Below are positions 23,983 to 40,542 of a stretch of 64,000 nucleotides of DNA, piece after piece. A model generated the notes under the pieces. The model made no database searches. It was not told where the DNA came from and saw nothing but the letters and a program-made list of their open reading frames with translations. The position numbers and the translations under genes are program-made. The first letter of the stretch is position 1, and each line of letters begins with the position of its first letter. Source of the stretch: Methanolacinia petrolearia DSM 11571 (GTDB taxonomy: Archaea > Halobacteriota > Methanomicrobia > Methanomicrobiales > Methanomicrobiaceae); NCBI RefSeq assembly GCF_000147875.1, contig NC_014507.1, forward strand, positions 1,550,001-1,614,000, read 5' to 3'.

Positions 23983-24476
23983 TAGAAGAAAACAAGAGCC
24001 GCCTTCGAAATGTCCGGGCTTTTGAAACTCTCATTAAGTGTAATCTCATTCAGTTCTTTTTAAAAACAGAGCAATTAAAAGAGATATGCTATTGTCCAGT
24101 TTGAAGTACTCTTCGGATTTTCAAGTATATCATGTCCTGTAAGAGACCGTGATCATAACAGTAGCAGGGTTGATTTTCTAAAATATTATTTCATCATTGA
24201 TAGTTTAATCAGTTGGATAAAGAATGTAATTTTTATAGTGTTCATCGTAATTGATCTCCCGCGATATACATAAATCGCTGAAATACTTCTTCATCAAATA
24301 ACCTGTCTGCTGATATGAAGTACCCGAATTTAAGATACAATTCCCTCTAACACCTCTCCCCAAATCCTCTGTCGGGGATTAGACTCTGCATCATACTCCT
24401 TCCGGTTTGCAGTATCAGCATGATCTTCTTTATTCCCGTCGCCCTGCTGCATACGGGCGGCTATCATTCGGAGATA
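23983..24476. other. Non-coding AT-rich region
   Basis: I see no gene, strong hairpin or repeat here apart from ordinary AT-rich runs. It separates the DUF1294 block from the end of the minus-strand surface operon. Confidence 0.4.
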
Positions 24477-25652: not shown

Positions 25653-26939
25653 TCAGCCCGAAGGTGTTGAATCAAATGGATCAATTGTTCCATCATTGTC
25701 ATAATCTCCCCATCCGATGAAGCATCTGGTGGATGTACTTATCACTGATGTTGCCGTGTGATCTCTCATTACGCTGGGAGTTGACGAAATACATGTTACG
25801 TGATTAGTATTAGTATACATATCGTGCATCGGACTTACTGCCAGTATACTGGATTGTCCGCAATAACTTGATTCTGCATATTCATCAAGGGCTCCATAGA
25901 GATGCAAAGATTCATGTTCATAGCTCCCGGGAACAGAGGGTACACTTCCGGAACCTGTTCTTCCCCAATATGAAATTGCAGTTTTGTCTGCATAGCCCTT
26001 ATCTGGTCCGACGGCGTATGCACCCCAGTCATCATGAGTAAAATAAAGTAAAATAACCGAATCTGCACCAGACCAGCTTTTAACTGAACGTGCAAGGTCA
26101 TCGGTTGTACGCCCATCGTCATTAACATCTGTGTACCCTATGTTTTCTGCTGCTTCTTCCATCCAGCCATTTGGATCCCAGGCATCACTATTATCTCCGG
26201 TATTTGCACCCGATACCGTTACTGTATAATATCCGCCGTCATTTACTGCATTGGCAGACGATGGTGCCTGTAGTCTGATGGAATTCGTTCCTATAGATGC
26301 ATCGTTCAATGCGTCATTTCTATCCGCTGTAGTCCATGCACCTTCACTGCTTGGATTTTGGAAGTCGGTGATAATGTATAGATAGTACATTTTTCCACAT
26401 GCATACGGCGCGGATCGGGAACTTGGAGAGATGTAATCCTTGCTTTCTGCCGGATCCTCAAACCTCTCTAAAAGGTAATTTTGATAGTCCTCAACTAATT
26501 GTTCTTTTTGTGATTGAATAAACTTCGCAGTTTGAAGAGTGTTTAATCCCAGGATCTCGCTTACTTCTTCACTAAATACATTGAGGTCCGTTATAGGATA
26601 GTAATTATGTTCTTTATCATAGTAATTATACAAGACTTTTTTTTCAAGAATCTGAGAATATTTTACCAACTCTTCTTCAGATAATCCCCATTCCATCCTC
26701 TTATTCCAGTAACTCAGGTAAGTCATGGGATCTTTAATAATTATTTCACAGTCATTTTCCTTGCTGATTGAAGTGCTTTCACTAATTGAAAAATCAACTG
26801 CTTCTGGTGCCGGTACATCAATTCCAATGATGTTTGCATTTTTGTCATTATCCGCACTAACAGCCGGAACGAAGATCGCACCGGCGAGTGCCACTACAAA
26901 TAGCAGGCCCAGGACCTGCATACCGAGTTTTATTTTCAT
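25653..26939 (-). CDS. Secreted putative zinc metalloprotease (HExxH)
   Basis: A 428-residue secreted protein with signal peptide (residues about 1-29, A-G-A-I-F-V-P-A-V-S-A). An N-terminal helical region could be a pro-segment, and the C-terminal half contains YEHESLHLYGALDEY. This is an H-E-S-L-H zincin motif followed by Asp-Glu, as in metalloproteases that use a downstream acidic or His third ligand. A late G-D-Y-D-N-D-G-T-I-D-P-F is a calcium-binding-like (dockerin/thrombospondin-type) loop. The Met at 26939 follows GAGGTGAAAAA. The gene is directly preceded by conserved leader copy C. Overall family not recognised; protease activity is inferred from the motif. Confidence 0.75.
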   Translation of the reverse strand: MKIKLGMQVLGLLFVVALAGAIFVPAVSADNDKNANIIGIDVPAPEAVDFSISESTSISKENDCEIIIKDPMTYLSYWNKRMEWGLSEEELVKYSQILEKKVLYNYYDKEHNYYPITDLNVFSEEVSEILGLNTLQTAKFIQSQKEQLVEDYQNYLLERFEDPAESKDYISPSSRSAPYACGKMYYLYIITDFQNPSSEGAWTTADRNDALNDASIGTNSIRLQAPSSANAVNDGGYYTVTVSGANTGDNSDAWDPNGWMEEAAENIGYTDVNDDGRTTDDLARSVKSWSGADSVILLYFTHDDWGAYAVGPDKGYADKTAISYWGRTGSGSVPSVPGSYEHESLHLYGALDEYAESSYCGQSSILAVSPMHDMYTNTNHVTCISSTPSVMRDHTATSVISTSTRCFIGWGDYDNDGTIDPFDSTPSG

Positions 26940-27180
26940 TTTTTCACCTCTGTTAAGTTTTTTACCGGCATGCAAACCTTAATCTGCTATAATGCTGACA
27001 TAGGAGATGCCGGTCTTGTTAGTCGGCAAATGAAGGATTAGACTGCGGGTCTGTGTGTAACTTTAGGGCCTGCAATCCGGTCCTTTTACTTACCTTTTCA
27101 TTGGATTTTTTTAAAAGGGGTTTAGTGGAGGTGTACTCCTCATCCGCCCCCGGTTGAAAATATGGTATAGTTATATAATA
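26940..27180 (-). promoter_or_regulatory. Conserved structured leader, copy C
   Basis: Read on the minus strand, this begins with a TATA-like TTATATAACT (about 27169-27178). It continues with GGGGGCGG, a GAGG/CCTC hairpin, then AAACCCCTTTTAAAAA, a variable middle, and a 3' hairpin whose arms ACCGGCAT and ATGCCGGT pair perfectly. The second arm ends about 11-20 bases before the GAGGTG ribosome site of the metalloprotease gene. Three further copies exist (28441, 34000, 39099). Leader or riboswitch-like regulation is inferred. Confidence 0.7.
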
Positions 27181-27527
27181 ATATTTTTCACCATGCTCTT
27201 GAACAATCATCTAAAAAGTTGAGAAAATTATTTTATTGAAAGATAATATTTATTTATGATTTTGTAAAACCAAAGCTTTGAAGTTTTTTTAAAAAAATGT
27301 TGATTTTTGACGCTAATTTTTTCTCCTGCGCTGGCAAAGCTCCCGCATTCCGGGATATCACTGATGCTGATAATCCTCTAAATCAGACTTTATCCGGTTG
27401 TATCCAGCACTTCCACAACTCCAGATAAACGGCCTATGACTAGGTTCCTTATGTAGTCTTTGCAATCGATAAGAGCTATTGAATTGGTGCATAGATAAAA
27501 AAAAGAATGATCTCCAGTAAAAGATCA
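27181..27527. other. Non-coding region between leader C and the second DUF1294 copy
   Basis: AT-rich near 27220-27300 and mixed afterwards. No gene seen. It separates the minus-strand surface operon from the plus-strand DUF1294 gene. Confidence 0.4.
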
Positions 27528-28149
27528 TAAATGCAAAACATCCTCATCCTTCTTGCAATCTACATCCTCCTCAACATCGTCTCGCTCTTTGCCTTCGCCC
27601 TCGACAAAAGGAAGGCCGCGAAAGGAAAATGGCGGACGCCTGAAAAGAAACTTCTGCTTCTCTCTTTCCTCGGGCCTTTCGGGGCGGCCTTCGGGATGAG
27701 AATGTTCCGGCACAAGACGATGAAGCTGAAGTTCAAGCTGGTCTATATCTTCCTCGCCCTGCACATCGTCGCGATATGTGCCATTGTGATGTTCCTGGCG
27801 GATCTGATCTGATTTTTTATTCTCATTTTTTGATTCTTTCATGACCCAACATTACTATTTTTTCAGGATGATCGTATAGAAATCCTGTAAATTGTTAAGT
27901 AAAACTTAAATAGTGCGAAAATACGGCAAAATTGCCATTTTCCCAATCCACACAGAAGCCCCAGAATCCACGATCTCCTCTTCCTTCGATATAATCATCG
28001 TCCGGAAAAAAGAGGGCATTCTCGTGCCGGCATATCGATGCGATTTGGCCTTTAATTCCCGTAAAAACAGCGTATTGACGATATTTAAAAACAGATTTCA
28101 AAACACAGCATAAATCGCGGAAATAAGCCCAAATTGCCGCTTTTTTGGG
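27528..28149 (+). repeat. Segmental duplication, copy 2 (DUF1294 gene plus downstream)
   Basis: Partner of 23360-23982. Similarity starts at or just before the ATG and runs through the coding region and about 340 bases beyond, ending in AAATAAGCCCAAATTG followed by a T run in both. The GTG frame downstream (27913-28113) keeps the first 34 codons but diverges at the end. Confidence 0.8.
27531..27812 (+). CDS. DUF1294-family small membrane protein, copy 2
   Basis: A 93-residue protein differing by only two residues from the copy at 23363. Same helices and the same W-R-T-P-E, L-G-P-F-G-A-A-F-G and H-K-T-M-K-L-K-F-K motifs. Recently duplicated. Function unknown. Confidence 0.88.
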   Translation: MQNILILLAIYILLNIVSLFAFALDKRKAAKGKWRTPEKKLLLLSFLGPFGAAFGMRMFRHKTMKLKFKLVYIFLALHIVAICAIVMFLADLI

Positions 28150-28294
28150 CTGACCGAATCATGAAAAAGTATGGTAAGGTGATGATATCCGGGATTTCAG
28201 TAAAATACCCTGAAGAAATGAATTATCAAGCCATAATTTTCATTAAATACTTCCTCATATCCGCCTTTGCAGCATCTGCAATTTGGATGCAAAA

Positions 28295-28668
28295 AGCGCA
28301 TAGGAAGAATTCTGAGAGTATTTATTTTGCTCCGGGATCAAAGACAAAATATCGATTTTCGCCAATTTAAGCAGAAAAATAAATACTCAATATGATTGAT
28401 GTGTAGACGATCGTTCAAGAAGAAATAAATATGACCATGAGTTATTCTCAACTGGGGGCGACCGGGGGATCTGTGCCTCTGATCAAACCCTTTTAAAACA
28501 CAATCCGGTGCTGTTTCCAGAGAAAATGGAATGAAGATCCCGAAATTAAATCAGTCATCCCGCTTTTCCCTGACTATACACCGGCCGATACAACCGGCAT
28601 CTGCTATTTCAGCGCTATAACGGATAAAAGTTTGCATGCCGGCTGTTAAAAATGAAAAGAGGTGAAAA
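28295..28668 (+). promoter_or_regulatory. Conserved structured leader, copy A, with promoter region
   Basis: The region 28295-28440 (promoter side, AAATAAATATGA near 28424) and the leader 28441-28668 match 33870-34237. Core features: GGGGGCGACC (from 28454), a short hairpin closing with GCCTC, AAACCCTTTTAAAA, a conserved middle (CCAGAGAAAATGGAATGAAGATC), then the 3' hairpin with arms CCGGCAT (about 28594-28600) and ATGCCGG (28636-28642), and GAGGTG before ATG 28669. A 26-mer plus-strand frame at 28134-28370 over the upstream part looks fortuitous. Confidence 0.7.
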
Positions 28669-29766
28669 ATGAAAACGAAAACAACCATGCAGGCATTAAG
28701 CCTGCTAATGGTACTGGCACTTGCAGGTGCGATCTTCGTTCCGGTTGTTGGTGCATCAAATACCAAATCAGCTAATGAGAATCTTCAAAAAATACAGATA
28801 CCTGATCTTCAGGTAGACAAAAGCAAAGCATACTCAATTATTACTGAATCCTTAAGCCCTATGAACACCGAGAGTAAATCCATAATTCCATTAGGCGCAA
28901 TTATCCATCATTCAAATGATGGTAACACATATGTATTCGACTCCACAGGAAAACAAATTCTTATAGCCAGTGACGCAGAGGCTACTGAGATTACCACCCC
29001 AGAAGGCCTTCAACCTGCAACAACAGTTCATGAGGTTCCCCAAGGAGCGCTTATTTTGGACTCTCAAACGAACAAAAATACAACATTTGTATTTAGCCAA
29101 GATGGAGAACTTCTATTTACAGTTATCGATGATAAAATATCAGAAAAAAGTATAGAATCGCGTGTAAATTTAGTTGGGGGATGGATTGTGTGGGCCGAGA
29201 AAACTGTCAGTCAAATCAGTTATTTAAGATCCAGATGGTATACCCCGTCAGCCCCGACCCAAATGACAAATCCATTTGCACTGGCAATATTCAACGGATT
29301 GGAAAATTCGGAAACAATAATTCAGCCGGTTTTAGAGTATAACTATGGATTAAACAATCCCGAATGGACTATGACGTCATGGCGCGTTAGTAGTGGTAGT
29401 TCTTATTATAGTCCTAGACATGATGTAGACCAGGGTGATAATATTGAAGGGACATTGCAATATACTACTATTAATGGCCAGACGGGATGGCTTGTTACTA
29501 CTGCAGATCTAAGTAAAGGGACCTCAACATATTACTTTACAAACGTAATCTCATCTAATAGCAATCTCGAAATTGTTAATACTCTGGAAATTGCTCAGGG
29601 AGGGACCTCTAATCCATATGACATGTGCGGAGATATTACCTTCAACAATGTGAATATTCCTCAAATCACGCTTAATCCGGGCTATACTACAGTCCCCATG
29701 TGGTATGGAATGTTCGATGTCGTATTTAATCCGAATCCGACCCAGGTAACTCTGGTTACGCCATAA
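28669..29766 (+). CDS. Secreted eqolisin-like beta-sandwich protein
   Basis: A 365-residue secreted protein: signal peptide (about 1-29, A-G-A-I-F-V-P-V-V-G-A), a linker region, and a C-terminal domain (about 165-340). The order of motifs there recalls glutamic peptidase G1 (eqolisin): R-W-Y-T-P, then F-N-G-L-E, then I-I-Q-P-V-L-E-Y, then T-S-W-R, then V-D-Q-G-D-N-I-E-G-T. The Gln position is present, but the expected catalytic Glu after the Trp is not, so it may be a binding rather than a protease domain. The fold assignment is my inference. A paralogue broken by a stop codon is at 34238-35323. First gene of a five-gene operon. Confidence 0.7.
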   Translation: MKTKTTMQALSLLMVLALAGAIFVPVVGASNTKSANENLQKIQIPDLQVDKSKAYSIITESLSPMNTESKSIIPLGAIIHHSNDGNTYVFDSTGKQILIASDAEATEITTPEGLQPATTVHEVPQGALILDSQTNKNTTFVFSQDGELLFTVIDDKISEKSIESRVNLVGGWIVWAEKTVSQISYLRSRWYTPSAPTQMTNPFALAIFNGLENSETIIQPVLEYNYGLNNPEWTMTSWRVSSGSSYYSPRHDVDQGDNIEGTLQYTTINGQTGWLVTTADLSKGTSTYYFTNVISSNSNLEIVNTLEIAQGGTSNPYDMCGDITFNNVNIPQITLNPGYTTVPMWYGMFDVVFNPNPTQVTLVTP

Positions 29767-29871
29767 TCCGCAGGACATCCTGACAAATAGAGAATGTGAG
29801 AAGCAGATTTCAGCTTCTCCCTCTCTTTCAACCGAAAAATCTGAATATATTCACCATCAGGAATCGTAAAA

Positions 29872-30495
29872 ATGAAAATTCAAGAAAAATTAGTAATAAT
29901 TATTATAATTGTTACGGCTCTTATAATTCCGGTAAATGGTTATATCCAAGATGACATGGATAATTTGACAAAAACAAATTTGTCGGACGGACCGGCAGAG
30001 TGTGGCGTAGGATCATACTGGTATAAAGTGAACCCTGTTGGAACACAGTACACAGGTGCAAATTTTATAATTTCCGGGACAACCAACCTCCCGGCCGGCC
30101 AGGAAATCAATTATATGCTACAGGTTTCTGACATCGGGCCAGGAAGCCCTGAACTTCGACCCCCCTCGTACACCGATACAACAGCTGTTATTGCGGGGGA
30201 AGGAGAAATTAACTCGTGGTCGGCGAAAGTAGATACAACAAAATTCAAGACTGACACAGGTTTACAATCTGATGCAGTTGCCGGTAACTATTCTCTTATC
30301 ATCGGGCCGTTCTGCAAAGATGTCTTCCATCTTATTATTGTAGACAATTCAACATCCTATAATGAGACTTTCAAATCCGATACAAGTTTAAATTCTAATG
30401 ATAAAACAGACTCATCAACGCAGACAAAAAAATCGCCGTTGCCTGTATTGATTATAATATTCAGTATGGGATTAGCGGTTTTATTCAGGAGATGA
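29872..30495 (+). CDS. Secreted protein with C-terminal anchor, function unknown
   Basis: A 207-residue protein with signal peptide (about 1-24), an extracellular beta-rich domain (ANFIISGTTNLPAGQEINYMLQV, a pattern I associate with archaeal surface DUF3821-type domains), a Ser/Thr-rich stalk and a C-terminal helix ending FRR. The DNA of its last 24 codons is identical to the end of the gene at 30492-31802, so the anchor was copied. It overlaps the next gene by ATGA. Confidence 0.7.
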   Translation: MKIQEKLVIIIIIVTALIIPVNGYIQDDMDNLTKTNLSDGPAECGVGSYWYKVNPVGTQYTGANFIISGTTNLPAGQEINYMLQVSDIGPGSPELRPPSYTDTTAVIAGEGEINSWSAKVDTTKFKTDTGLQSDAVAGNYSLIIGPFCKDVFHLIIVDNSTSYNETFKSDTSLNSNDKTDSSTQTKKSPLPVLIIIFSMGLAVLFRR

Positions 30496-30673
30496 CATTT
30501 AGGTTTATGAATTACATCAAACGATTGAGGCAAACGGAAGGAATCGGAGGTGTGATTATTAATTTCATCAATTCCCCCAAATTTTTAATTTTTTTATTAT
30601 TAATAGCGTTTATAATCATTCCCGCACAGGCATTATCTCCCCTGTGGGTATCAAACCTGACAGAGATCGACCA
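30424..30673 (+). repeat. Gene-junction repeat, copy 1 (250 bp identical)
   Basis: By eye, 250 bases are identical to 31731-31980. They cover the C-terminal anchor of one gene, the ATGA junction and the first 60 or so codons of the next propeller gene. Identity stops sharply at 30674, after which the two propeller genes diverge. This is a gene-conversion or unequal-crossover footprint. Confidence 0.85.
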
Positions 30674-31802
30674 AGACATCCAGGATACAAGTGGCCGCCA
30701 CTTCCTGTTGTTCCTGGCAATTTCAGATGACGGTAAAACAATTGCCACAGCATCATTCGACGGCAGCATATATCTCATGAATGAGAAAGGAAAGGTACTC
30801 CGGAATATAACGGCAGGAAATGAATCCTTAGAAATTCTTTCATTGAGCCTCTCACCCGAAGGGGATTATCTTGCATTCTCAGATGCGGGTTTTTCCCCGG
30901 CATCGAATCCCCCGAAAAAAATCACCCTCATGGACAGAAACTGCGAGGAACTGTGGAATCATCCGACCCGGACATTTACATACATTTTGGCAGTCTCTTC
31001 GGACGGCTTATACAGCGTATTCGGCTCTTATGAAAATATCACATGCGTAGACAAGGACGGATCAGTCCTGTGGAATTATCCCGAGGCCGCAGTCTCTCTT
31101 GACATATCGGACGATTTTGAGTATATCGTCGCTATAACGGATAACCAGAAGGCATTTTGCCTGAACAGAAGCGGATCGGTAATATGGGAAAATAAATTCC
31201 GGTCGCCCAACAACATAAAAATCTCCGCCGACGGAAATTACGTCTCCCTTACAACCACCCTAAGGAAGCTGTATCTCATGGAAAGTACCGGAGCACCCCT
31301 CTGGAACAAGACATTGCCGCCGGGAACAAAGTATGCAAAAAGCGAGATCTCCTCTGACGGCGACGAGATAGTTGTACGAATAAACGGAGCCATATCCGGC
31401 TACGACCGGTCCGGAATGCTCAGGTGGAATTACACAAAAGAACCGGCATCGATATTCTCGCTCTCAAAAGACGGCCGTTTTTCGGTTGTCGCAGCCAACG
31501 ATTCCCTGCTCATCCTTGACGGCGAAGGAAACGAAACCGGGAAATTCTCCTTCGATGAAAAAATTCAGGGCGTGGCCATATCATCCGACGGCTCGAAAAT
31601 AGCGGCGATCACAGATAATGAATTATATTATTTCGACAATCCCGATGCGGAATTAAAGAATTCTGATATCACCCCGGATGAGACCTTACAAACAACAGGT
31701 CCAGAAGAGATAACACCACCGGCAACAGAGACAAAAAAATCGCCGTTGCCTGTATTGATTATAATATTCAGTATGGGATTAGCGGTTTTATTCAGGAGAT
31801 GA
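30492..31802 (+). CDS. Membrane-anchored beta-propeller protein, copy 1
   Basis: A 436-residue protein: N-terminal signal or anchor helix (about 30-48), then 6-7 propeller blades of the PQQ/WD40 type, each with the pattern S-x-D-G-x-x-x-x-x and an N-x-x-G-x-x-L-W-N strand. A stalk and the same C-terminal helix ending LFRR follow. It is translationally coupled at both ends (ATGA overlaps with 29872-30495 and with its own tandem copy). Probably a surface binding or sensing protein; the ligand is unknown. Confidence 0.78.
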   Translation: MTFRFMNYIKRLRQTEGIGGVIINFINSPKFLIFLLLIAFIIIPAQALSPLWVSNLTEIDQDIQDTSGRHFLLFLAISDDGKTIATASFDGSIYLMNEKGKVLRNITAGNESLEILSLSLSPEGDYLAFSDAGFSPASNPPKKITLMDRNCEELWNHPTRTFTYILAVSSDGLYSVFGSYENITCVDKDGSVLWNYPEAAVSLDISDDFEYIVAITDNQKAFCLNRSGSVIWENKFRSPNNIKISADGNYVSLTTTLRKLYLMESTGAPLWNKTLPPGTKYAKSEISSDGDEIVVRINGAISGYDRSGMLRWNYTKEPASIFSLSKDGRFSVVAANDSLLILDGEGNETGKFSFDEKIQGVAISSDGSKIAAITDNELYYFDNPDAELKNSDITPDETLQTTGPEEITPPATETKKSPLPVLIIIFSMGLAVLFRR

Positions 31803-31980
31803 CATTTAGGTTTATGAATTACATCAAACGATTGAGGCAAACGGAAGGAATCGGAGGTGTGATTATTAATTTCATCAATTCCCCCAAATTTTTAATTTTT
31901 TTATTATTAATAGCGTTTATAATCATTCCCGCACAGGCATTATCTCCCCTGTGGGTATCAAACCTGACAGAGATCGACCA
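31731..31980 (+). repeat. Gene-junction repeat, copy 2
   Basis: Partner of 30424-30673; see that entry. It spans the end of propeller copy 1 and the start of propeller copy 2. Confidence 0.85.
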
Positions 31981-33148
31981 GGACATCCAGGATACAAGCG
32001 GTGCTCACTTCCTGTTGTTCCTGGCAATTTCAGATGGCGGCAGAACAATTGCCGCAGCATCATTCGACGGCAGCATATATCTCATGAACGAGAACGGAGA
32101 GGTACTCCAGAATATAACAGCAGAAAATGAATCCTCTGAAATCCTTTCATTTAGCCTTTCATCCGAAGGTAACTTTCTTGCCCTGTCAAGTGTTGGTCCC
32201 GGTCCGACATCGAATCTCCCGAAAAAAATCATCCTAATGGACAAAAACTGCGAGGAATTGTGGAATCATCCGACCCGGACATTCGTATACGATTCGAAAG
32301 TATCGTCGGACGGCTTATACAGCGTATTCGGCTCTTATGAAAATATCACGTGTGTAGATCGAGACGGATCGATCCTGTGGAATTATCCCGTGGCCGCCCA
32401 GGTAATCTCTCTTGACATATCGGACGATTTTGAATATATCGTCGCTGTAACGAATGACCAGAAAGCATTCTGCCTGAACAGGAGCGGATCGGTAGTATGG
32501 GAAAATAAATTCCGGTCGCCCTACGACATAAAAATCTCCGCCGACGGGAATTACGTTTGTCTTACAACATACCTGAGAAAGATGTACCTCATGGAAAGTA
32601 CCGGAACACCTCTCTGGAACAAGACATTGCCGCCGGGAACAAAGTTTGCAAAAAGCGGGATCTCCTACAACGGCGATGAAATTGTGGTACGAACAACCGG
32701 AGCCGTTTTAGGATACGACCGATCGGGATTGCTCAGGTGGAATTATACTACGGAATATCAGCAATCCCTAACCCATCCGATATCGGCCCCGATCTTTTTA
32801 CTCTCAAAAGACGGCCGGTATTCGGTTGTCGCAGCCAACGATTCCCTGCTCATCCTTGACGGCGAAGGAAACGAAACAGGATCATTCTCCTTCGATGAAA
32901 AAATTCAGGGCGTGGCCATATCATCCGACGGCTCGAAAATAGCGGCGATCACATCTAATGAATTATATTATTTCGACAATCCAGATGCAAAATTAAAGGA
33001 TTCCGATATCACCCCGGATGAGACCTTACAAACAACAAACACAGAAGAGAAAACACAGCCTGCAACACAGACGAAACAATCGTCGCTGCCTGTATTGATC
33101 ATAATATTCAGTATTGGGTTAGCGGTTTTCTTCCAGGGCAGGCCATGA
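31799..33148 (+). CDS. Membrane-anchored beta-propeller protein, copy 2
   Basis: A 449-residue tandem paralogue of the previous gene, with the same N-terminal helix, propeller blades and C-terminal anchor region (ending FFQGRP instead of LFRR). Most blades are about 80% similar by eye, and one loop is longer (EYQQSLTHPISAP). It overlaps the following gene by ATGA. Same proposed surface role. Confidence 0.78.
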   Translation: MTFRFMNYIKRLRQTEGIGGVIINFINSPKFLIFLLLIAFIIIPAQALSPLWVSNLTEIDQDIQDTSGAHFLLFLAISDGGRTIAAASFDGSIYLMNENGEVLQNITAENESSEILSFSLSSEGNFLALSSVGPGPTSNLPKKIILMDKNCEELWNHPTRTFVYDSKVSSDGLYSVFGSYENITCVDRDGSILWNYPVAAQVISLDISDDFEYIVAVTNDQKAFCLNRSGSVVWENKFRSPYDIKISADGNYVCLTTYLRKMYLMESTGTPLWNKTLPPGTKFAKSGISYNGDEIVVRTTGAVLGYDRSGLLRWNYTTEYQQSLTHPISAPIFLLSKDGRYSVVAANDSLLILDGEGNETGSFSFDEKIQGVAISSDGSKIAAITSNELYYFDNPDAKLKDSDITPDETLQTTNTEEKTQPATQTKQSSLPVLIIIFSIGLAVFFQGRP

Positions 33149-33636
33149 AAAAGAATCACCTAATCTGCATCCTGATCGGACTGACTGTTATAATATTAAT
33201 AGCGGTAGCGGCTTTATGGTTTTACGAACCGGCGCCGGCGCCGGACAATCCAAAAAAAGATTCACCGCCACCGGGAGTAGCAATAATGAACATACCATAT
33301 CTTTTCCAACCTTCGAAAGTCGAACTGAAAGCAGGCGAGACGGCAGAGGAGAATATTACCCTGGAAACGAGAAAGAACGGGCCGGGGTTGGTTCACTATA
33401 CCGTCCCATCCCGTGTCAAGGACGTTTATTCAACAGAAGAACTTCCCTGGCCGGACGGTTTGAATATCAGTATCGAACCTTCGGACTTCATGGTATACCC
33501 GAACGAGACCTACACATCGACCCTTACCGTTACGACGACTCCCGACCTTTTACAGGGTGAATATGTGTTTCGTTTAGGTTCCCACTTCGAGGGTGTTGAG
33601 ACAGGAGGGGGATGGCTTACTGTGGTAGTAAATTAA
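33145..33636 (+). CDS. Membrane-anchored Ig-like small protein, copy 1
   Basis: A 163-residue protein with an N-terminal transmembrane helix (about 7-26), a Pro-rich linker and a beta-sandwich domain (about 55-163: KVELKAGETAEENITLET, then V-Y-P-N-E-T-Y-T-S-T-L-T-V). The fold resembles NEW3/Ig-like domains of archaeal surface proteins. A near twin is at 35360-35851, and a diverged relative at 36009-36524. The last 140 bases and the downstream 120 are almost identical between the twins. Confidence 0.72.
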   Translation: MKKNHLICILIGLTVIILIAVAALWFYEPAPAPDNPKKDSPPPGVAIMNIPYLFQPSKVELKAGETAEENITLETRKNGPGLVHYTVPSRVKDVYSTEELPWPDGLNISIEPSDFMVYPNETYTSTLTVTTTPDLLQGEYVFRLGSHFEGVETGGGWLTVVVN

Positions 33637-33689
33637 ATATTCTCACGGAAAAATAGTCATCCCTGGCCCCAATTTTCCCGGAATAAAAC

Positions 33690-33779
33690 ATGAAAACGAA
33701 GACACAGCATATCATTATCATCCGCATGTTTGCAATATCCGGAATTGCAGACGATAGAATTCCCCCGGGTCCGGGTTAG
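33690..33779 (+). pseudogene. Small coding remnant (29 codons)
   Basis: The frame MKTKTQHI...FAISGIADDRIPP is a shortened version of the start of the gene at 36537-37112 (MKTKTQHI...AVSGIEDNKIPP). It is the same as a 35-codon frame at 35905-36012 but for one extra C in a C run, which brings an early stop here. A decayed or minimal duplicate. Confidence 0.55.
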
Positions 33780-33794
33780 AAAAGAGGTGTCTGA

Positions 33795-33857
33795 ATGAAT
33801 AAAAAAGGCACAACAAATTATTATAGCAGCATTTGCAGCACCCACAATTACGGATGA
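33795..33857 (+). pseudogene. Remnant of the 36009-type gene
   Basis: ATGAATAA followed by ATTATTATAGCAGCATTTGC lines up with the start of the gene at 36009 but is frameshifted and ends after 20 codons. Nothing else of that gene survives before the promoter of leader copy B. Confidence 0.5.
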
Positions 33858-33869
33858 AAAACGCGCATT

Positions 33870-34237
33870 TGAGGAAATCAGAAGATATTTATTTTGTTCT
33901 GAAATCAAAGACATGAGAGTGATTTCCACCATTTTATGCAGAAAAATAAATGCTCAATATTATTGATGTGTAGACGATCGTGCAAGAAAAAAATATATAA
34001 AAGTATGAGTTATTCTCAACTGGGGGCGACCGGGGGGATCTGTTCCTCTGATCAAACCCTTTTAAAAACAATCCGGTGCTACTTCCAGAGAAAATGGAAT
34101 GAAGATCACGTAATTAAATCAGTCATCCCAGTTTTCCCTGACTATACACCGGCCGATACAACCGGCAATTCCTATGTCAGCGCTATGGCGGATAAAGGTT
34201 TGCATGCCGGCTGTTAACAATTAAACGAGGTGAAAAA
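33870..34237 (+). promoter_or_regulatory. Conserved structured leader, copy B, with promoter region
   Basis: A clear TATA box AAATATATAAAAG (33991-34003) lies upstream of GGGGGCGACC (34022 on), the CCTCTGATCAAACCC segment, the conserved CCAGAGAAAATGGAATGAAGATC middle, and the 3' hairpin (arms CCGGC / GCCGG) directly before the GAGGTG ribosome site of the gene at 34238. The match with 28295-28668 covers the promoter side as well as the leader, with small indels. Confidence 0.72.
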
Positions 34238-35323
34238 ATGGAAATGAAAAAGAAAAACGACATGCGCCCGCTCTTCCTGCTTCTTATAATCGGACTGGGA
34301 AGTATGGTGTTTGTGTCTGCTGCAAGCGCTGAGGATATTGACTGGGCCTATCCGGAACTTGAGATAGACGATTCACTGGATGCAATGGTGATCCAGAGTG
34401 AAATAAGTCCGATGAAAGGTGAATCTCTTTATCAGATACCGACTGACTCCGTAATTTATCATTCCCCTAACGGGATCACAAGCGTATTCACACAGGATGG
34501 AAAACAGATCCTTTCTGCTATAGATGCAGATGCCGTTAAAGTTTCAGTCCCATCCGCCGGATTATTACCGGCGACTCATGTGCATCAGGTTCCAAACTGA
34601 GCTGATCTTTATACAAAGGAGAATATTACAAAGGTCTACAGTGATGGAGCATGTATACTGACTGTCATCGACGATCAGGCGAATTCTAAGAAAAAGTCAG
34701 CTGTTCCTACCTATGGCGGATGGATAGAGCGGTCACAGGATTTGAGTGTCGATGAAATTGCGCAATTCATAGCGTACTGGGATGTGCCTTCATCACCTTC
34801 CCCACAATCAGATTCTATAGTTTATCTGTTCAATGCAATAGAACCATCAAATGGACATGCAATAATACAGCCGGTCCTGGAATGGAATAAGCATTCCGCT
34901 AAAGACTGGACCGGCTCCGCATGGTATTTCCCGCCATACCAGAATGAAGGCTATTTCAGTACTCCAATCGATGTAGATGTTGGTGATACGATTAAGGGCA
35001 CAATGGGGTGGAATCCGGGTAACAACAAGTGGACCATTACATTTAAAGATGAAGACACCGGAGTCTCAACAGTGAATATCACCGGTTGCATAGGTTACCA
35101 AGATGTTAAGGTATTTACTGCCCTGGAAGGATATTATGTTGATGATGATTCTGAAGTTCCGGGCGATACAACGTTTTATAACATGCGCTTTAGGGATTTA
35201 AACCTGCAAAATGTTGATATTGAGTGGCTACCTGATGTAGATGGTACTGCACCGCTAACAGGGCTGAGAGTAGAGATTCCCGATGGTATCAATACCTGGG
35301 TGAAACTACATACAGCTAACTAA
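34238..35323 (+). pseudogene. Eqolisin-like secreted protein broken by one stop codon
   Basis: Paralogue of 28669-29766. The frame is intact except for a TGA at 34598-34600, where the sister gene has a Gly codon after VP-Q/N. Reading continues in the same frame for another 240 codons (YGGWIERS, I-A-Y-W-D-V-P, I-I-Q-P-V-L-E-W, D-V-G-D-T-I-K-G-T). A single GGA-to-TGA change explains it. The signal peptide and ribosome site are intact, so a 120-residue fragment may still be made. Selenocysteine recoding is unlikely here. Confidence 0.8.
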
Positions 35324-35359
35324 AGACAAAATTATTAATTTCCAGGGATTGATGGACCT

Positions 35360-35851
35360 ATGAAAAAGAATCATCTAATCTGGATCCTGACTGGACTGAC
35401 TGTTATAATATTAATAGCGGTAGCGGCTTTATGGTTTTACGAACCTGCACAAGCCCCCGAAGGCCCAGGAACAGATTCATACACACAGAGGTTAGTACAC
35501 CTACCCTCATCACAACTTTTCCAACCTTCGACAGTCGGGCTGAAAGCAGGCGAGACGGCAGAGGAGAACATTACCCTGAGAACAGGGGGGGAAGGACCGG
35601 GGATGGTTCACTATTCCGTATCCCCCCGTGTTAAGGCTGGCTACCCAACAGAAGAACCTTCATGGCCGGACGGTTTGAATATCAGTATCGAACCTTCGGA
35701 CTTCATGGCATACCCGAATGAGACATATATATCGACCCTTACCGTTACGACGACTCCCGACCTTTTACAGGGTGAATATGTGTTTCGTTTAGGTTCCCAC
35801 TTCGAGGGTGTTGAGACAGGAGGGGGATGGCTTACTGTGGTAGTAAATTAA
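35360..35851 (+). CDS. Membrane-anchored Ig-like small protein, copy 2
   Basis: A 163-residue twin of the product of 33145-33636: the same transmembrane N-terminus (ILIAVAALWFYEPA), a variable linker, and a domain nearly identical from S-I-E-P-S-D-F to the end. It follows the broken secreted gene by 36 bases. Role unknown, probably exported and membrane bound. Confidence 0.72.
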   Translation: MKKNHLIWILTGLTVIILIAVAALWFYEPAQAPEGPGTDSYTQRLVHLPSSQLFQPSTVGLKAGETAEENITLRTGGEGPGMVHYSVSPRVKAGYPTEEPSWPDGLNISIEPSDFMAYPNETYISTLTVTTTPDLLQGEYVFRLGSHFEGVETGGGWLTVVVN

Positions 35852-35904
35852 ATATTCTCACGGAAAAATAGTCATCCCTGGCCCCAATTTTCCCGGAATA
35901 AAAC

Positions 35905-36012
35905 ATGAAAACGAAGACACATCATATCGTTATCATCCGCATGTTTGCAATATCCGGAATTGCAGACGATAGAATTCCCCGGGATCGGGTTAGAAAAGTG
36001 GTGTCTGAATGA
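35905..36012 (+). CDS. Possible small protein of 35 residues
   Basis: Starts MKTKTHHIVIIRMFAIS and ends in TGA that overlaps the ATG of the next gene (ATGA at 36009-36012), the coupling seen throughout this operon. A truncated version exists at 33690. It resembles a shrunken N-terminus of the gene at 36537. It may be a translated leader peptide or only a remnant. Confidence 0.4.
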   Translation: MKTKTHHIVIIRMFAISGIADDRIPRDRVRKVVSE

Positions 36013-36524
36013 ATAAACGAACAATACTCATGATAATAGCTGCAATTGCAGTAATCATTGTTCTTAGCATGGCTTTGGTATATCTGGTGGAACCTGCTTC
36101 CGATGATAATAATGAAGACGAAACCACCCCCACACTGGTAACTCCCGGAAGATCTCATTTCGGTGCATCAGAAGAATACCTGTTCCCTGAATCCGGAGAA
36201 ATTAAAGCAGGGGAAAATATGACTTTCAGATTAATGATCGAAAAGAATAAAGAAGCGATCATGAATGAAACGATCAATGTCTCCCGTGTAAATGAAGTTT
36301 ATTCCGATCAAAAACTGCCTTTGCCTGAAGGTGTGAATATCTCCTGTACGCCTTCTGTATTTATTTCGTACCCCGGAGAAAGTTACAATGTGAGCCTGAT
36401 CCTTGCGACAACTGAGGAAACTCCAGGGGATGTTTATCATTTCAGGGTCCATAGACTTTTTGATTCGGGAATTACGACATTATGGTTTGACTTAAACGTA
36501 ACTTCTTCAGGTTTGGCAGACTGA
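36009..36524 (+). CDS. Membrane-anchored Ig-like small protein, diverged relative
   Basis: A 171-residue protein with an N-terminal helix (about 6-27), an acidic linker and a beta domain following the same plan as the 163-residue twins: EIKAGENMTFRL, L-P-L-P-E-G-V-N-I-S-C-T-P-S, S-Y-P-G-E-S-Y-N-V-S-L. Same operon, diverged early. Function unknown. Confidence 0.7.
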   Translation: MNKRTILMIIAAIAVIIVLSMALVYLVEPASDDNNEDETTPTLVTPGRSHFGASEEYLFPESGEIKAGENMTFRLMIEKNKEAIMNETINVSRVNEVYSDQKLPLPEGVNISCTPSVFISYPGESYNVSLILATTEETPGDVYHFRVHRLFDSGITTLWFDLNVTSSGLAD

Positions 36525-36536
36525 TTTGAGTAAGAC

Positions 36537-37112
36537 ATGAAAACAAAGACACAGCATATACTAACCGCCTGCATCCTTGCGGCCGTACTAATTGTCATGG
36601 TTGCTTTTGCAGTTTCAGGAATAGAAGATAATAAAATTCCCCCGGATCCGGCTGAAAAAATCTCCGAAAGCACGGATAGTCAAAACAACCCGACTCCCAA
36701 CACCACCAGGGAGAACACAACCTTCATCGACATCCACCATGCAGACGGCGGAAGAATCATACTCTACCCCGAAGACCCTGAATTTTCTGCAATAGAGACT
36801 GAGTGTTACGAACAGATCCGTTGCATCAATGCACAGATGAAAACCGGTTTTTCCGGTGCTGAGTTGGATGCCATGAAAAACAACGGCACTTATGTCGCGA
36901 TAAATTTCTCCGCCCCGACCACATTTGAGACCAGCTACATAGTCGACGGATCGCCAAAGACAATCACGATCGATGAGGCGATATTCTTCCTCTATTCGGA
37001 ATACGAATTGATGATCATCACACCGATGCAAAACGCAGCCGGTGTCTGGGGAACGTCGCGTGACCGGGGAGAACTGAAAAAACTTGTCGACCCGATCTTT
37101 CAGAAATTGTAA
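36537..37112 (+). CDS. Secreted or membrane-anchored protein, function unknown
   Basis: A 191-residue protein with an N-terminal helix (about 8-27), a Pro/Thr/Asn-rich linker and a globular extracellular domain with two Cys (E-C-Y-E-Q-I-R-C). No family recognised. Last gene of the leader-B operon, 12 bases after the previous one. Confidence 0.65.
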   Translation: MKTKTQHILTACILAAVLIVMVAFAVSGIEDNKIPPDPAEKISESTDSQNNPTPNTTRENTTFIDIHHADGGRIILYPEDPEFSAIETECYEQIRCINAQMKTGFSGAELDAMKNNGTYVAINFSAPTTFETSYIVDGSPKTITIDEAIFFLYSEYELMIITPMQNAAGVWGTSRDRGELKKLVDPIFQKL

Positions 37113-37439
37113 GGCGGCAGCGGGTAACCTATATATCATATAAAGGCAAAGAGTCCCCGGGCAGTGTCTGTGATGCCGGCGATGACGGACCAGTGAAATA
37201 TAGAGGAAACAATGGAAAAATAAGAATAAAATATAATCTTGTTTTATGCCCCCAACCTTTCCATCTCGCTGCCGCCGTCCGGGTTACGGCCTGCCCGCAA
37301 TCTTCTCGTTTTAAAAGGTTCAGGCGATACCGACGACTGAATCCGGAATACCATGCAGATCCCGGAAGAATATTCTGCAATTTCTCCAATAAATATGATT
37401 AAATAATTTTAATAAAAATTAAATAACAGGTGCACCTGC
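37113..37439. other. Non-coding gap
   Basis: No gene seen. An AT-rich stretch at about 37390-37430 (AAATAATTTTAATAAAAATTAAAT) lies where the promoter of the small regulator at 37440 is expected. Confidence 0.4.
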
Positions 37440-37664
37440 ATGAGTGTAAAAAGTTTCAGCATCTCCGACGACGTATATGAAAAATATTCGTCCGAATGCA
37501 AACGCCTCGGCCTTAACATGAGCAAACAGATTGAAAATTTCATGAAGTTCCAGCTCGACGAAGAATTTGCAGTAAGGGAGGAGTACATCTATAAAATAGA
37601 CAAACTTCGGAAAGAAAGATTCAGGCCGGTTTCCGATTTCGACAAAGAATTTGAGATCTCCTGA
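37440..37664 (+). CDS. Small ribbon-helix-helix-like protein (antitoxin-like)
   Basis: A 74-residue protein whose first 45 residues (KSFSISDDVYEKYSSECKRLGLNMSKQIENFMKFQL) have the strand-helix-helix pattern of CopG/Arc-type DNA-binding proteins: S-F-S-I-S-D-D-V, L-G-L-N-M-S-K-Q-I-E-N-F-M. The charged tail would suit an antitoxin. No toxin gene is adjacent; the next 390 bases hold no gene. Confidence 0.65.
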   Translation: MSVKSFSISDDVYEKYSSECKRLGLNMSKQIENFMKFQLDEEFAVREEYIYKIDKLRKERFRPVSDFDKEFEIS

Positions 37665-38055
37665 AGAAAAAATGTTGGATTTCTACAAAACCGGCATATC
37701 TGAAATCGTTGCAATATTCAATAAAAAAAGGTCGTAATTTACAGTTTTCAATATCCTGCACCAGCCTTGAAATCCTGAATTTCGTCATAATCACGCTCAA
37801 AGTGATTGGATGTAATATGACCTCCTTCGGGAGGATAAGCAAGACAGCTTTTTTTCGATTTTGATTGCACCTTTAATTATTGATCGGAGAGAATTGCGAT
37901 TTCTGTAAAATACGGCTTTAAAAGCTTAGTTCGAATAAATAGTTCCAACTCCGCAGAATTTACCAGTATATTCAAAATATTTCCCTGACTTTTCTTTGTT
38001 TTAACATCTTCTCATTTTTAACAATATAACAAATTGACTTTTTAAAAACACGGAT
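37665..38055. other. Non-coding AT-rich gap
   Basis: AT-rich, with no supported gene on either strand and no conspicuous repeat. Confidence 0.4.
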
Positions 38056-38286
38056 TTAACTTTTAGATAATCGACAATACAGCCTCCGGATAATTAACAA
38101 TACTAAACCGAGAATACAGAATATAATAAGTGCAAGAAGAACAAGACCAGCAAATTGGCCAAAAAGCATGAAGAAAATATCTGATCCAGGGAATAACATC
38201 CTTAAATTAAAATAAAAAATTAATAGGAGGAGCATTATAGCAAAAACTACCGTTAAAATAGAATCCGTTGATATTTTTTGCTGCAT
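38056..38286 (-). CDS. Small two-helix membrane protein
   Basis: A 76-residue protein with two hydrophobic helices (about 9-31 and 38-66) and a basic C-terminus. It lies 14 bases after the secreted protein encoded upstream, so it belongs to the leader-D operon. No family recognised. Confidence 0.6.
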   Translation of the reverse strand: MQQKISTDSILTVVFAIMLLLLIFYFNLRMLFPGSDIFFMLFGQFAGLVLLALIIFCILGLVLLIIRRLYCRLSKS

Positions 38287-38300
38287 TCTCCAATCTCCTA

Positions 38301-39098
38301 TTACGAAACTGTTACTGTATACTGATCATCATCCCATGTAGGAATTCCAGTAAGGACCTCTTGTTCATGATCATATGCATAAAAGACAAACTGTCCACGG
38401 GTACTAAACTGTACTCTCACTTTCATCTCTTCATTATAGTCAAATGTATGTAGATCCATCCAATATAGAACTGTGCATGGTCCATTAACACCACCACATT
38501 CCGGGAAATAGGCAGTTTCTCCAGAATCGATATTTACTACCATGTTAGGTTGTTTTCCATGGTAAACAGATATGTAATCAACACCCTCTGGAATTTTGAG
38601 ATAATAATTTGTTTCCCCATCCGGAGCCGTATTTTGCACTTCAATGTTCACTGTCCCATACTGGTTAAGAGTATAGCTATATTTGTCCGGTGTTATTGTA
38701 ATCTCAGCATCCAATATGTAAGGAATATCCCTTAAAATTAAGGGTGAACTTCCCTTTTCAGAAATCAATGGATTTTCTGAATATTCTTTAGTACCTACCA
38801 ATACACCATTTTTAGAATATATATTAGCAATATATTGACCGTTTTCTGATTGTTTCACAGTCACAGTATATTCTTGAGATGCTTTTTCGGATTTGAATAA
38901 CATGGAGGCTTTAGAAAAATCATTATTAGGAATAACTGTAATTTCCATATTATCAATAATTGCTTTATATTCCACTTCATTTGAGTCCACAATTATGTTT
39001 TCATAAGTCTGTTCAGCATTAACTACGGGTATAAGTGCAGTGACAAATACTACTGCAAGGAGTAACGAAAATGCTCTTATTTCTTTTCTAGCTTTCAT
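38301..39098 (-). CDS. Secreted beta-rich protein under leader D
   Basis: A 265-residue protein: signal peptide (about 1-26, L-I-P-V-V-N-A-E), an N-terminal beta region and a C-terminal domain with Y-S-Y-T-L-N-Q-Y-G-T-V-N-I-E-V-Q-N-T-A, G-G-V-N-G-P-C-T-V-L-Y-W. It looks Ig-like, possibly an adhesin. The ATG at 39098 is immediately downstream of the leader; the frame extends upstream into the leader, which is not coding. Family not recognised. Confidence 0.68.
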   Translation of the reverse strand: MKARKEIRAFSLLLAVVFVTALIPVVNAEQTYENIIVDSNEVEYKAIIDNMEITVIPNNDFSKASMLFKSEKASQEYTVTVKQSENGQYIANIYSKNGVLVGTKEYSENPLISEKGSSPLILRDIPYILDAEITITPDKYSYTLNQYGTVNIEVQNTAPDGETNYYLKIPEGVDYISVYHGKQPNMVVNIDSGETAYFPECGGVNGPCTVLYWMDLHTFDYNEEMKVRVQFSTRGQFVFYAYDHEQEVLTGIPTWDDDQYTVTVS

Positions 39099-39330
39099 CT
39101 TATCATCTCTTTTCAATTTTAACAACCGTCGTGCAAACCTTAATCCGCTATAATGCTGACATAGGAGATGCCGGTTGTATGGGTCGGCAAATGAAAGACC
39201 GGGCAACAGGGTTTGATGTGGTAATCGGAGTTCTGAGGCCAGGTCCTTTACTCAACCGTTTATTAATTTTTTAAAAGGCGTTTAGTGGAGCAACAGTCCT
39301 CATCTGCCCCCGAAGTAAATAATTGATCTA
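39099..39330 (-). promoter_or_regulatory. Conserved structured leader, copy D
   Basis: On the minus strand: CGGGGGCAGATGAGGA (from about 39314), a GAGG/GCTCC hairpin, CTAAACGCCTTTTAAAAAA, a variable middle, the conserved CATTTGCCGAC segment shared with copy C, and the 3' hairpin. Here the arms ACAACCG and CGGTTGT pair perfectly, although they differ from those of copy C (ACCGGCAT/ATGCCGGT). It ends just before the ribosome site of the gene at 39098. Confidence 0.7.
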
Positions 39331-39432
39331 ACGGCATATACCTGCTCTGACCCAATCATCGAAATAAAAAGAACTGGTTTCTTTTATTTTATAGTGAAAC
39401 CATCTGACTACATAAAGAACAATCTCTAAAGA

Positions 39433-40542
39433 TCACATATAAAGAACATACTGGTACAGCCCTTTCCGGTCGTACTGGTGTTCGAGGATCCAGTTGTGGA
39501 CTTCGACGCATTCGTTATAGCGGTCGACAACCGACTGGAGACTCTGCGATCTGCTGTTATATGAATTGACCTTCGAATTGTAGACAGGAACATTCTTGTT
39601 GTAACCCGAAATATCCCCGCTTCTTCTCATCTGGTCGAGCTGATTCGACATGGAATCGATCTCGTTCTTAAGAGTTGCAAGCTCCGCCTCCTCCTGTTCA
39701 ATCTGCGACGAGAGCTCTTCGCAGGTCAAAGCTTTTCTTTCAAAAATATTATAGATCTTCTGAACCTGGCTGCATGCGGTATAATACAGTCCGCCTTCGT
39801 TGTCGAAGGTGATCACGAGCGGATCGGAATCCAGCATCTCTCCGTCGCCGATCTCGAGCTTCTCCCACCCGATCAGATTCACGTCCGTCGACTCGATGGC
39901 CGCATATCCCGTATCCCTGTATTCGCACCCGTTCGATTTGATCCCCACGTTCATGTGCTCCTCGGAATCGTATTCGAGAAGTGCGACATCATAGCCCTCC
40001 TTTAAAAGAAGCCCGGCGAGAAGAATGCTCTTGTCGTCGCAGTCTCCCGAATCCTCGTAAACGGTTTCAACCGGGTACTTGGGATCCGTATCGTTTCTGT
40101 CTGTCAGATACGGGATCGACTGCACATAAACCGAGATCAACTCTGCGTACTCGTCGTTGTCAAGCGAAAGCTGATCTTTCACCTTCCTCAGCGACCCGAG
40201 AATCGCCTCGTAGACCTCGTCCATGTATTCGCTGTAGACAAACGACCTGTAATACTCCGAAGTCCATTCTTCGTCCGAGATATTTTCATAAAGATAGACG
40301 TATTTGTCCGTATTCTTCGCATCTTCATACAGGACCTTGTCGACCGAATATTTTATCGAGATCTCGCTGTTCTGGAAACTGAACGTATCCTCGATCGTCA
40401 CGTATTCCGGTGCAGCGTTACCGTGGTCGATGGACGGGTAATCCGCATCGCTGAAATGAAAAAAACTATTCGAACACCCGGATGTCAAAAGAACAAATAC
40501 CAACACCAGTATGAGAATTATTCCGTATTTTACCCTGGACAT
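39433..40542 (-). CDS. Transglutaminase-like lipoprotein with coiled coil
   Basis: A 369-residue lipoprotein (lipobox T-S-G-C, Cys about residue 23). The central region has SGDCDDKSILLAGLL (Cys of a transglutaminase/protease-like triad, about 165-179) and E-H-M-N-V-G-I (the His, about 196-201). Residues about 275-320 form a coiled coil (E-E-L-S-S-Q-I-E-Q-E-E-A-E-L), followed by a helical tail. It probably acts on surface proteins or peptides. It is divergent from the hydrogenase protease gene, with only 39 bases between them. Confidence 0.82.
   Translation of the reverse strand: MSRVKYGIILILVLVFVLLTSGCSNSFFHFSDADYPSIDHGNAAPEYVTIEDTFSFQNSEISIKYSVDKVLYEDAKNTDKYVYLYENISDEEWTSEYYRSFVYSEYMDEVYEAILGSLRKVKDQLSLDNDEYAELISVYVQSIPYLTDRNDTDPKYPVETVYEDSGDCDDKSILLAGLLLKEGYDVALLEYDSEEHMNVGIKSNGCEYRDTGYAAIESTDVNLIGWEKLEIGDGEMLDSDPLVITFDNEGGLYYTACSQVQKIYNIFERKALTCEELSSQIEQEEAELATLKNEIDSMSNQLDQMRRSGDISGYNKNVPVYNSKVNSYNSRSQSLQSVVDRYNECVEVHNWILEHQYDRKGLYQYVLYM

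Follow-up and report, generated by a model that had tools for sequence, protein, structure and literature searches.

Putative structured 5' leaders of secreted-protein genes in Methanolacinia petrolearia and other Methanomicrobiaceae

Four copies of a leader of approximately 230 nt (class 1) precede secreted-protein genes in the window analyzed here, i.e., 64,000 nt of the genome of Methanolacinia petrolearia DSM 11571 (NC_014507.1, positions 1,550,001 to 1,614,000), and we consider it rather probable, from predicted folds and promoter geometry, that class-1 leaders are cis-acting 5' UTRs controlling the translation of an exchangeable repertoire of secreted proteins. A sequence-only reading had already proposed that secreted-protein genes form a regulon under a cis-acting leader; the proposal holds, but on compensatory change in two hairpins (PA and PB) and on the promoter geometry rather than for the reasons originally given. 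To our knowledge, few cis-regulatory RNA classes have been described in archaea besides those in common with bacteria. Both leader classes of this genome (class 2 is described below) are missing from Rfam, and the leaders precede a large and almost unstudied set of secreted methanogen proteins.

Distribution and promoters of the class-1 leader

The positions and strands of all four homologous leaders, i.e., copies A (26940..27180, minus strand), B (28441..28668, plus strand), C (34000..34237, plus strand), and D (39099..39330, minus strand), were borne out by an alignment of ~230 nt with a mean column identity of 73%. Using blastn against its own genome, copy B matched copy C (E=6e-91; 91% identity), copy D (4.6e-21), and copy A (5.5e-14), and further class-1 copies were found elsewhere in the genome. 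The sequence GATNAAGGTTTGCATGCCGG occurs four times in the window at ≤3 mismatches versus 0.02 occurrences expected; the four leaders are genuine and their similarity is well above chance level. The order of conserved blocks that had been described applies in general, but copy D reads GGGGGCA and shows no clean GAGG/CCTC pairing.

A covariance-model search for more copies placed the four leaders in a larger family spread over eight genomes of five genera, Methanomicrobiaceae throughout, with at least a dozen copies (12 counted) before different secreted-protein genes in M. petrolearia and up to 19 copies per genome elsewhere in the group. The proposed comparison with Rfam (release 15, gathering score) left the class-1 leader without a match, the window yielding one tRNA only and the class-1 and class-2 loci none; permissive Rfam scans of positions 26000-40000 and of one class-2 locus gave only chance-level matches. 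Viral contigs searched for the class-1 leader returned no matches, leaving a virus origin unsupported. An exact-pattern scan of named genomes matched two Methanomicrobiaceae MAGs and one Paenibacillus, a few chance matches being expected given the size of the collection.

Because GGGGGCG is preceded at a fixed spacing by a TATA-like box and by an upstream element that is itself conserved (24 leaders, nearly every copy examined), the entire class-1 block is probably 5' UTR. This geometry places the predicted transcript start at the beginning of the conserved block and not downstream of it, where a start would have spoken against the leader. In copy A the upstream element TTCAAGAGCATGGTGAAA (27186..27203, minus strand) is an exact match, with 0.08 expected in the window, and its pattern has 14 sites in the genome versus none for the reversed control pattern. 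Judged by the spacing in the 24 leaders, the TATA-like boxes lie at 27172..27179 (copy A, minus strand, ~28 nt ahead of the G-run), 28426..28433 (copy B, plus strand), 33994..34001 (copy C, plus strand), and 39335..39340 (copy D, minus strand). Copy D has a second promoter type with the upstream element CGATGATTGGGTCAGAGCAGG, and a similar element also precedes class-2 leaders. The sequence TTTTAAAA as TATA box, which would leave the upstream blocks untranscribed, was set aside because there is a better-placed TATA box with a conserved upstream element and because the type-II leaders lack TTTTAAAA.

Hairpins PA and PB and the conserved 3' element PC

The 5' hairpin PA was located by folding and alignment in copy A (27117..27151, minus strand; GGGGGCGG...AAACCCC, with transcription predicted to start at its first bases), copy B (28454..28490, plus strand), and copy C (34022..34059, plus strand; aligned to copy B and folded as part of the whole leader), whereas the corresponding region of copy D (39277..39311, minus strand; GGGGGCAG...AAACGCC) forms the hairpin badly. 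What had been described as a variable middle is the long hairpin PB, found in copy A (27025..27094, minus strand; z=-3.1 versus dinucleotide shuffles) and copy B (28505..28584, plus strand; base CCGGTG/CACCGG, z=-2.8) and, by the same shuffle test, assigned in copy C (34073..34152, plus strand) and copy D (39185..39258, minus strand; AAAGGACC/GGTCTTT).

In an alignment-free arm-swap test of 12 dissimilar representatives, the statistic of which does not include phylogeny, PB folded at -21.7 kcal/mol with its own arms versus -14.2 kcal/mol with swapped arms (p=5e-5, the lowest value this test can give); the values for PA were -13.4 versus -10.1 (p=5e-5, phylogeny likewise ignored). Within the genus 86% of the PB pairs were paired versus 29-53% when slid, and seven both-side changes were counted versus 3.0 after shuffling (3/500). 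Helix-keeping compensatory changes, as looked for in structured leaders, are hence present in PA and PB and not clearly in PC. The selected RNA fold proposed earlier is upheld by these changes, but its original basis, the 3' hairpin, fails.

This 3' element, PC, is conserved mainly at the sequence level. It lies at 26964..27014 in copy A (minus strand; ACCGGCAT...GATTAAGGTTTGCATGCCGGT, 96.3 bits with covariance model R1, weak covariation), 28593..28645 in copy B (plus strand; 79.4 bits), 34161..34213 in copy C (plus strand; 83.4 bits), and 39123..39175 in copy D (minus strand; 89.4 bits), where the inner pairs are broken (ACGACGG), and its motif is retained in five genera. The arms had been said to change together; the 5' arm is near-invariant (ACCGGCAT in copies A, B, and D, ACCGGCAA in copy C), and the variation is therefore essentially confined to the 3' arm. 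The arms quoted for copy C were actually those of copy A, the true ones being ACCGGCAA...ATGCCGGC. RNAalifold found a single compensated pair and an unfavorable covariation term (+1.21) among 10 copies of the same genome, and arm-swapping gave p=0.049 for the PC arms, with no clear covariation, and p=0.51 for the apex and apical stem, i.e., no support. An anti-P1 pairing between the 3' end of PB and the 5' arm of PC, prompted by the L069 copies, was rejected as it lacked general covariation (p=0.41). By eye, AAACC in PA is complementary to GGUUU in PC in many copies, a candidate pseudoknot.

Secreted-protein genes and a second leader class

Copy A precedes a gene for a secreted protein of 428 aa (25653..26939, minus strand; signal peptide MKIKLGMQVLGLLFVVALAGAIFVPAVSA), copy B one of 365 aa (28669..29766, plus strand), copy C a shorter homolog of the latter with 120 aa (34238..34600, plus strand), and copy D one of 267 aa (38301..39104, minus strand) with a divergent signal peptide and weak fn3/DUF11-like matches below the cut-off. 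Closely spaced genes on the same strand lie downstream of copy B (29872-33636). The earlier description of the mature domains as mostly unrelated fits copies A and D, which are unrelated to the rest, but the mature domains of copies B and C cluster together. Throughout the family the genes have a signal peptide in common and vary in their mature parts, the kinds including secreted proteins, M12B-like peptidases, DUF6345, and transglutaminase-like proteins. For pairs of the same genome and class, similarity was 0.75 for the leader, 0.79 for the signal peptide, and 0.60 for the mature part versus 0.61 for random pairs; leaders stay alike while mature parts sit at the random level. A signal-peptide hairpin (GCGGGC-CTTAA-GCCTGC) is suggestive only, with a mean z of -1.23 versus synonymous recoding (n=48, related sequences) and a few compensated copies.

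Tracing the signal peptide of the class-1 genes led to the class-2 leader, which is unrelated to class 1 and present in 69 of 232 Methanomicrobiales genomes as well as in Methanosarcinales, with up to 13 copies per genome elsewhere in the group; covariance model R3 detected six loci in the M. petrolearia genome, all distinct from the class-1 loci. In class 2 the Shine-Dalgarno (SD) site and an upstream strand compete for a single anti-SD strand. Helices P2 and SD had 70 both-side-change cells versus 26 after shuffling (0/500), and the competing helix was 90% paired versus ≤60% when slid. At three Methanosarcinaceae loci the class-2 leader overlaps, on the opposite strand, a match to Rfam sRNA162 of 33-51 bits, under the gathering score of 78.

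In sister species near-identical mature genes were found after different leader classes, and leader and signal-peptide DNA was located at the borders of the exchanged segments, so the gene pool appears to be reshuffled between two unrelated leader classes. As a tentative and somewhat doubtful extension, methanogens of two orders might possess a combinatorial repertoire of secreted proteins in which mature-domain genes are moved among a limited number of expression sites. Each site would combine its promoter and conserved signal-peptide sequence with an interchangeable structured RNA leader from one of two or more unrelated classes, and a gene swap would alter RNA-level control.

Mode of action, alternatives, and known systems

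For class 1, transcription would begin at GGGGGCG, as set by the TATA box and upstream element, the RNA would fold into PA and PB, each maintained by compensatory change, and the sequence-constrained PC would end 11-20 nt ahead of the SD site, these being the sequence-supported steps. As no U-run terminator separates PC from the start codon, translation initiation would most likely be the controlled step, with the near-invariant PC sequence GATTAARGTTTGCATGCCGG as a candidate contact site for a protein, an antisense or trans RNA, or a ligand. The predicted SD accessibility of class 1 ranges from 0.01 to 0.95 and therefore a common ON or OFF state is not visible. In strand comparisons, PB folded better in antisense than in sense, and its GU and AC counts, given below, did not favor the coding strand. 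The function of class 1 may parallel that of class 2, whose leaders, although not related to class 1, serve the same secreted-protein family and have an anti-SD that can pair with either the SD or the upstream strand. Leader and signal peptide would constitute the expression site behind which mature parts are exchanged.

An antisense RNA, encoded opposite the leader or acting in trans, is an option absent from the sequence-only reading and suggested by a Methanosarcina relative of the sibling class 2 that binds one: in Methanosarcina mazei the transcript start of MM2442 was mapped 184 nt upstream, and gel-shift and footprint experiments showed sRNA162 binding to its 5' UTR (PMC3510493). The opposite-strand overlaps at class-2 loci and the PB antisense strand, which folds no worse than its sense counterpart, agree with such control, but the overlapping matches score below the gathering score and the permissive Rfam scan of positions 26000-40000 contained no sRNA162 match near class 1; we regard this option as unlikely, though of some plausibility. 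Alternatively, the leader itself could bind a small ligand, PC being the aptamer core, and gate ribosome access. Several hairpins and a near-invariant core adjoining the SD, many copies per genome ahead of one functional gene group, and the translational-switch layout of class 2 would suit a riboswitch, which nevertheless seems unlikely considering that the genes, mostly of unassigned function, lack a metabolic or transport theme, that the best-conserved part has no clearly covarying helix, and that an Rfam relative is absent. An RNA thermometer, in which an SD paired at low temperature would sit in a marginally stable hairpin of little conserved sequence, would fit less well with the strong sequence conservation of PC; SD pairing is inconsistent among class-1 copies, and the best Rfam thermometer match (27 versus a cut-off of 58 bits) lies inside a coding region.

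PA and PB could also be palindromic protein-binding or recombination sites in DNA, their RNA fold being incidental. Inverted repeats are indistinguishable at the DNA level, the 44 GU versus 70 AC counted in PB, about as expected from an A/C-rich sense strand, do not favor RNA, and the exchanged segments are bordered by leader and signal-peptide DNA. However, the block lies between a consistently spaced TATA box and a downstream SD, PB (70-80 nt with internal loops) is long for an operator, and the SD pairing of class 2 is an RNA feature, making a DNA-level element quite improbable. Recent duplication with neutral drift had been named as an explanation that would undo the reading: leaders would be alike only through copied 5' ends homogenized by recombination, in keeping with the 91% identity of copies B and C, the common leader and signal peptide ahead of different mature parts, and the segment exchange in sister species. 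It is insufficient because the arms of PA and PB have diverged far between genera yet stay complementary, the PC motif is present across five genera, and we give it very little credence.

The link between class 2 and sRNA162 offers Methanosarcina as a tractable host for testing the mechanism, and from the same link the start codon and "missing" ribosome site of MM2442 may need re-reading.

The surface antigens of Campylobacter and Mycoplasma are organized in expression-site or cassette systems in which the 5' end is constant and the mature parts vary. The methanogen genes resemble these systems in that promoter, leader, and signal peptide are conserved, the mature parts are unrelated, and exchange occurs at the 5' end, whereas in the methanogens every copy has its own promoter and exchange is known here between sister species, not within a culture. 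Translational riboswitches and protein-responsive leaders, e.g., bacterial and archaeal ribosomal-protein leaders (PMC7247131), are likewise conserved, structured, multi-copy, and SD-proximal, and share with class 2 the mutually exclusive helices at the SD; compared with these, the class-1 and class-2 genes encode secreted proteins and have neither a metabolic theme nor an Rfam family. The 5' UTR of MM2442 in M. mazei, the target of sRNA162 and sRNA171 (RF02792 being the antisense RNA), is similarly long, belongs to an archaeal gene without assigned function, and has an adjoining paralogous locus (Jager et al., 2012; PMC3510493). Its position, together with the Rfam match found in antisense in relatives, makes it the counterpart of the class-2 leaders, whereas the sequence of class 1 is unmatched. 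That study deals with a single leader and a single antisense RNA (with a paralogue), and the leader family, the SD-pairing switch, and the secreted-protein repertoire described here go beyond it.

Class-1 leaders and their promoter

The four class-1 leaders of the sequence-only reading, copies A to D at 26940-27180 (-), 28441-28668 (+), 34000-34237 (+) and 39099-39330 (-), were present as described and could be aligned over their full length. The genome of M. petrolearia, a single contig of 2,843,290 bp (C1) in which the window spans C1:1550001-1614000, was found to contain 12 class-1 loci using R1, a covariance model of the class-1 3' core trained on ten copies. Strong R1 scores were obtained in seven other Methanomicrobiaceae genomes, with up to 19 class-1 loci per genome. 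Using the broader covariance model R2, 8 of the 232 Methanomicrobiales genomes were positive, and the R2 matches across 394 genomes of the phylum were restricted to Methanomicrobiaceae. An Rfam scan of the class-1 sequences matched no family. At L172 (831747) and L173 (1462208) the class-1 leaders were decayed or altered, with the promoter and the 5' hairpin (PA) retained and the conserved 3' element (PC) either replaced at its apex or absent.

For the promoter comparison 24 leaders were aligned at the G-run of PA. A TATA-like box was located at about -32 to -26 in nearly all of them, with a conserved element upstream of it; the commonest form of this element, TTGTTCAAGAGCATGGTGAAA, occurred at 14 sites in the genome (reversed pattern: 0). 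Most of these sites were located 5' of class-1 leaders and the remainder before decayed or different leaders or leaderless genes. In archaea the TATA box is positioned about 26-30 bp ahead of the start, and by this spacing transcription should begin at GGGGGCG. At C1:822418 of M. petrolearia (L081 2419-3900) the promoter element occurs twice before a leaderless secreted gene, and the gene that follows has a helix-turn-helix-like end and is possibly a regulator.

Hairpins and level of control

The region 5' of PC that was formerly regarded as a variable middle corresponds to a long hairpin (PB), seen in copies of several genera. Its arms are strongly divergent across genera, yet each 5' arm is complementary to its own 3' arm: AAGGATC/GATCCTT in L084, AAAGGACC/GGTCTTT in copy D, CCGGTG/CACCGG in copy B, CCAGTG/CACTGG in L069, and ATTGG+AAAAGAAG/CTTCTTTT+CCAAT in L070. 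In an alignment-free test, run twice, PB arms paired with a mean of -21.7 kcal/mol with their own partner versus -14.2 with the arm of another copy (p=5e-5, the lowest value attainable with 20,000 permutations), and own-arm pairing was likewise preferred for PA (p=5e-5). Within genus, PB pair counts were 86% paired versus 29-53% when slid. These tests take no account of phylogeny; the representatives were picked for dissimilarity. A strand test comparing G-U with A-C gave no support to the coding strand, and the claim of selection on RNA over DNA therefore rests on position and on a sibling class, the unrelated class-2 leader found before the same secreted-protein family.

The co-variation previously proposed for the arms of PC was not borne out, as all four copies have ACCGGCA for the 5' arm and variation is essentially confined to the 3' arm. 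In wider class-1 sets PC was conserved at the sequence level (GATTAARGTTTGCATGCCGG), with covariation weak at best in its arms (p=0.049) and absent at its apex (p=0.51). PC is likely the contact site of the class-1 leader. Because the stretch from PC to the start codon showed no U-run terminator, class-1 control would likely act at translation. A Shine-Dalgarno (SD)-sequestering state common to class-1 leaders was not seen.

Reassortment of leaders and genes

The signal peptide behind class-1 leaders is near-universally similar to MKxKKGMRALSLLLVMALxGAMFVPAVSA. Different signal peptides follow in a few cases (copy D, L060, L061, L076), and the class-1 leader is thus not merely a piece of one duplicated gene. 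The mature domains recognised were M12B-like metallopeptidases and DUF6345, most mature parts having no match in the Pfam search. Same-class pairs within a genome scored 0.75 for the leader, 0.79 for the signal peptide and 0.60 for the mature part (random 0.61).

A 1.68-kb gene segment, 98.9% identical between the two genomes, follows a class-1 leader in M. petrolearia and a class-2 leader in the sister genome G015, where it is joined to the leader inside the first codons and flanked by sequence with 98.7% and 93.5% identity to M. petrolearia class-2 loci. At another locus leader and signal peptide were 93% identical and the mature part was unrelated. In such exchanges of segments between leaders in sister species (L140 versus L082, L123 and L125; L075 versus L081), the borders fall either at the start codon or where the signal peptide ends. 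Both leader classes occurred within several mature-domain clusters (90 cross-class pairs). Judged from these exchanges and mixed clusters, leaders and mature genes form separable units.

Both segments of a long direct repeat in the window (23316-24049 and 27519-28209) match the same L071 stretches at 87-94% identity, and an adjacent pair of beta-propeller (PQQ/BamB-like) genes lies downstream of copy B (30492-33148). The inverted repeat GCGGGC-CTTAA-GCCTGC is conserved in the coding sequence at codons 7-13 of signal-peptide genes, and some copies (L031, L038, L136 and L122) are compensated. In M. limicola a repeated 440-bp unit (L065 8534, 14008 and 16721; L066 1883 and 15517) consists of a class-1 leader and a 45-49 aa ORF ending in VDTDFISPNYAGKIIPF, and then comes a second promoter and leader ahead of a full-length gene. 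L066 also holds a sixth copy, which carries a frameshift.

The class-2 leader and sRNA162

The signal-peptide search gave matches in 47 of the 232 genomes, and many of the genes so found lack a class-1 leader and bear a different conserved one, class 2, instead. Using its covariance model R3, class 2 was identified in 69 of the 232 Methanomicrobiales genomes (17 genera), including six M. petrolearia loci (C1:384266, 387782, 391552, 463160, 464232 and 467476; L122, L123, L125), and in 46 genomes outside Methanomicrobiales in the phylum sample; it is widespread in Methanomicrobiales and Methanosarcinales and matched no Rfam entry. Two more leader types, unlike either class, precede the same signal peptides in L128-L130 (G012, G010) and L135 (M. 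limicola).

Two class-2 helices covary strongly (70 both-side-change cells versus 26 shuffled, 0/500), the paired cells being inflated by an alignment fitted to both helices and the slid controls being far lower. One of them is predicted to sequester the SD (GTCTCC/GGAGAC or CCTCC/GGAGG), and the anti-SD strand has an alternative upstream partner (CCCGGAGGCAA/TTGCCTCCGGG; 90% paired, no covariation). As predicted from sequence, these competing helices have the layout of a translational switch.

At three Methanosarcinaceae loci (L175, L178 and L187) the Rfam family sRNA162 matched the class-2 leader in antisense over its 5' part (E=1e-6, 4e-4 and 0.013, all below gathering). In M. mazei sRNA162 has a 65-nt antisense overlap with the 5' UTR of MM2442, whose transcript was shown by RACE to begin 184 nt ahead of the annotated start, and binding of sRNA162 to this 5' UTR was demonstrated by gel shift and footprinting (PMC3510493). 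From the correspondence with the Methanosarcinaceae loci, which ties class 2 to the antisense regulation known for MM2442, we infer that the MM2442 leader belongs to class 2.
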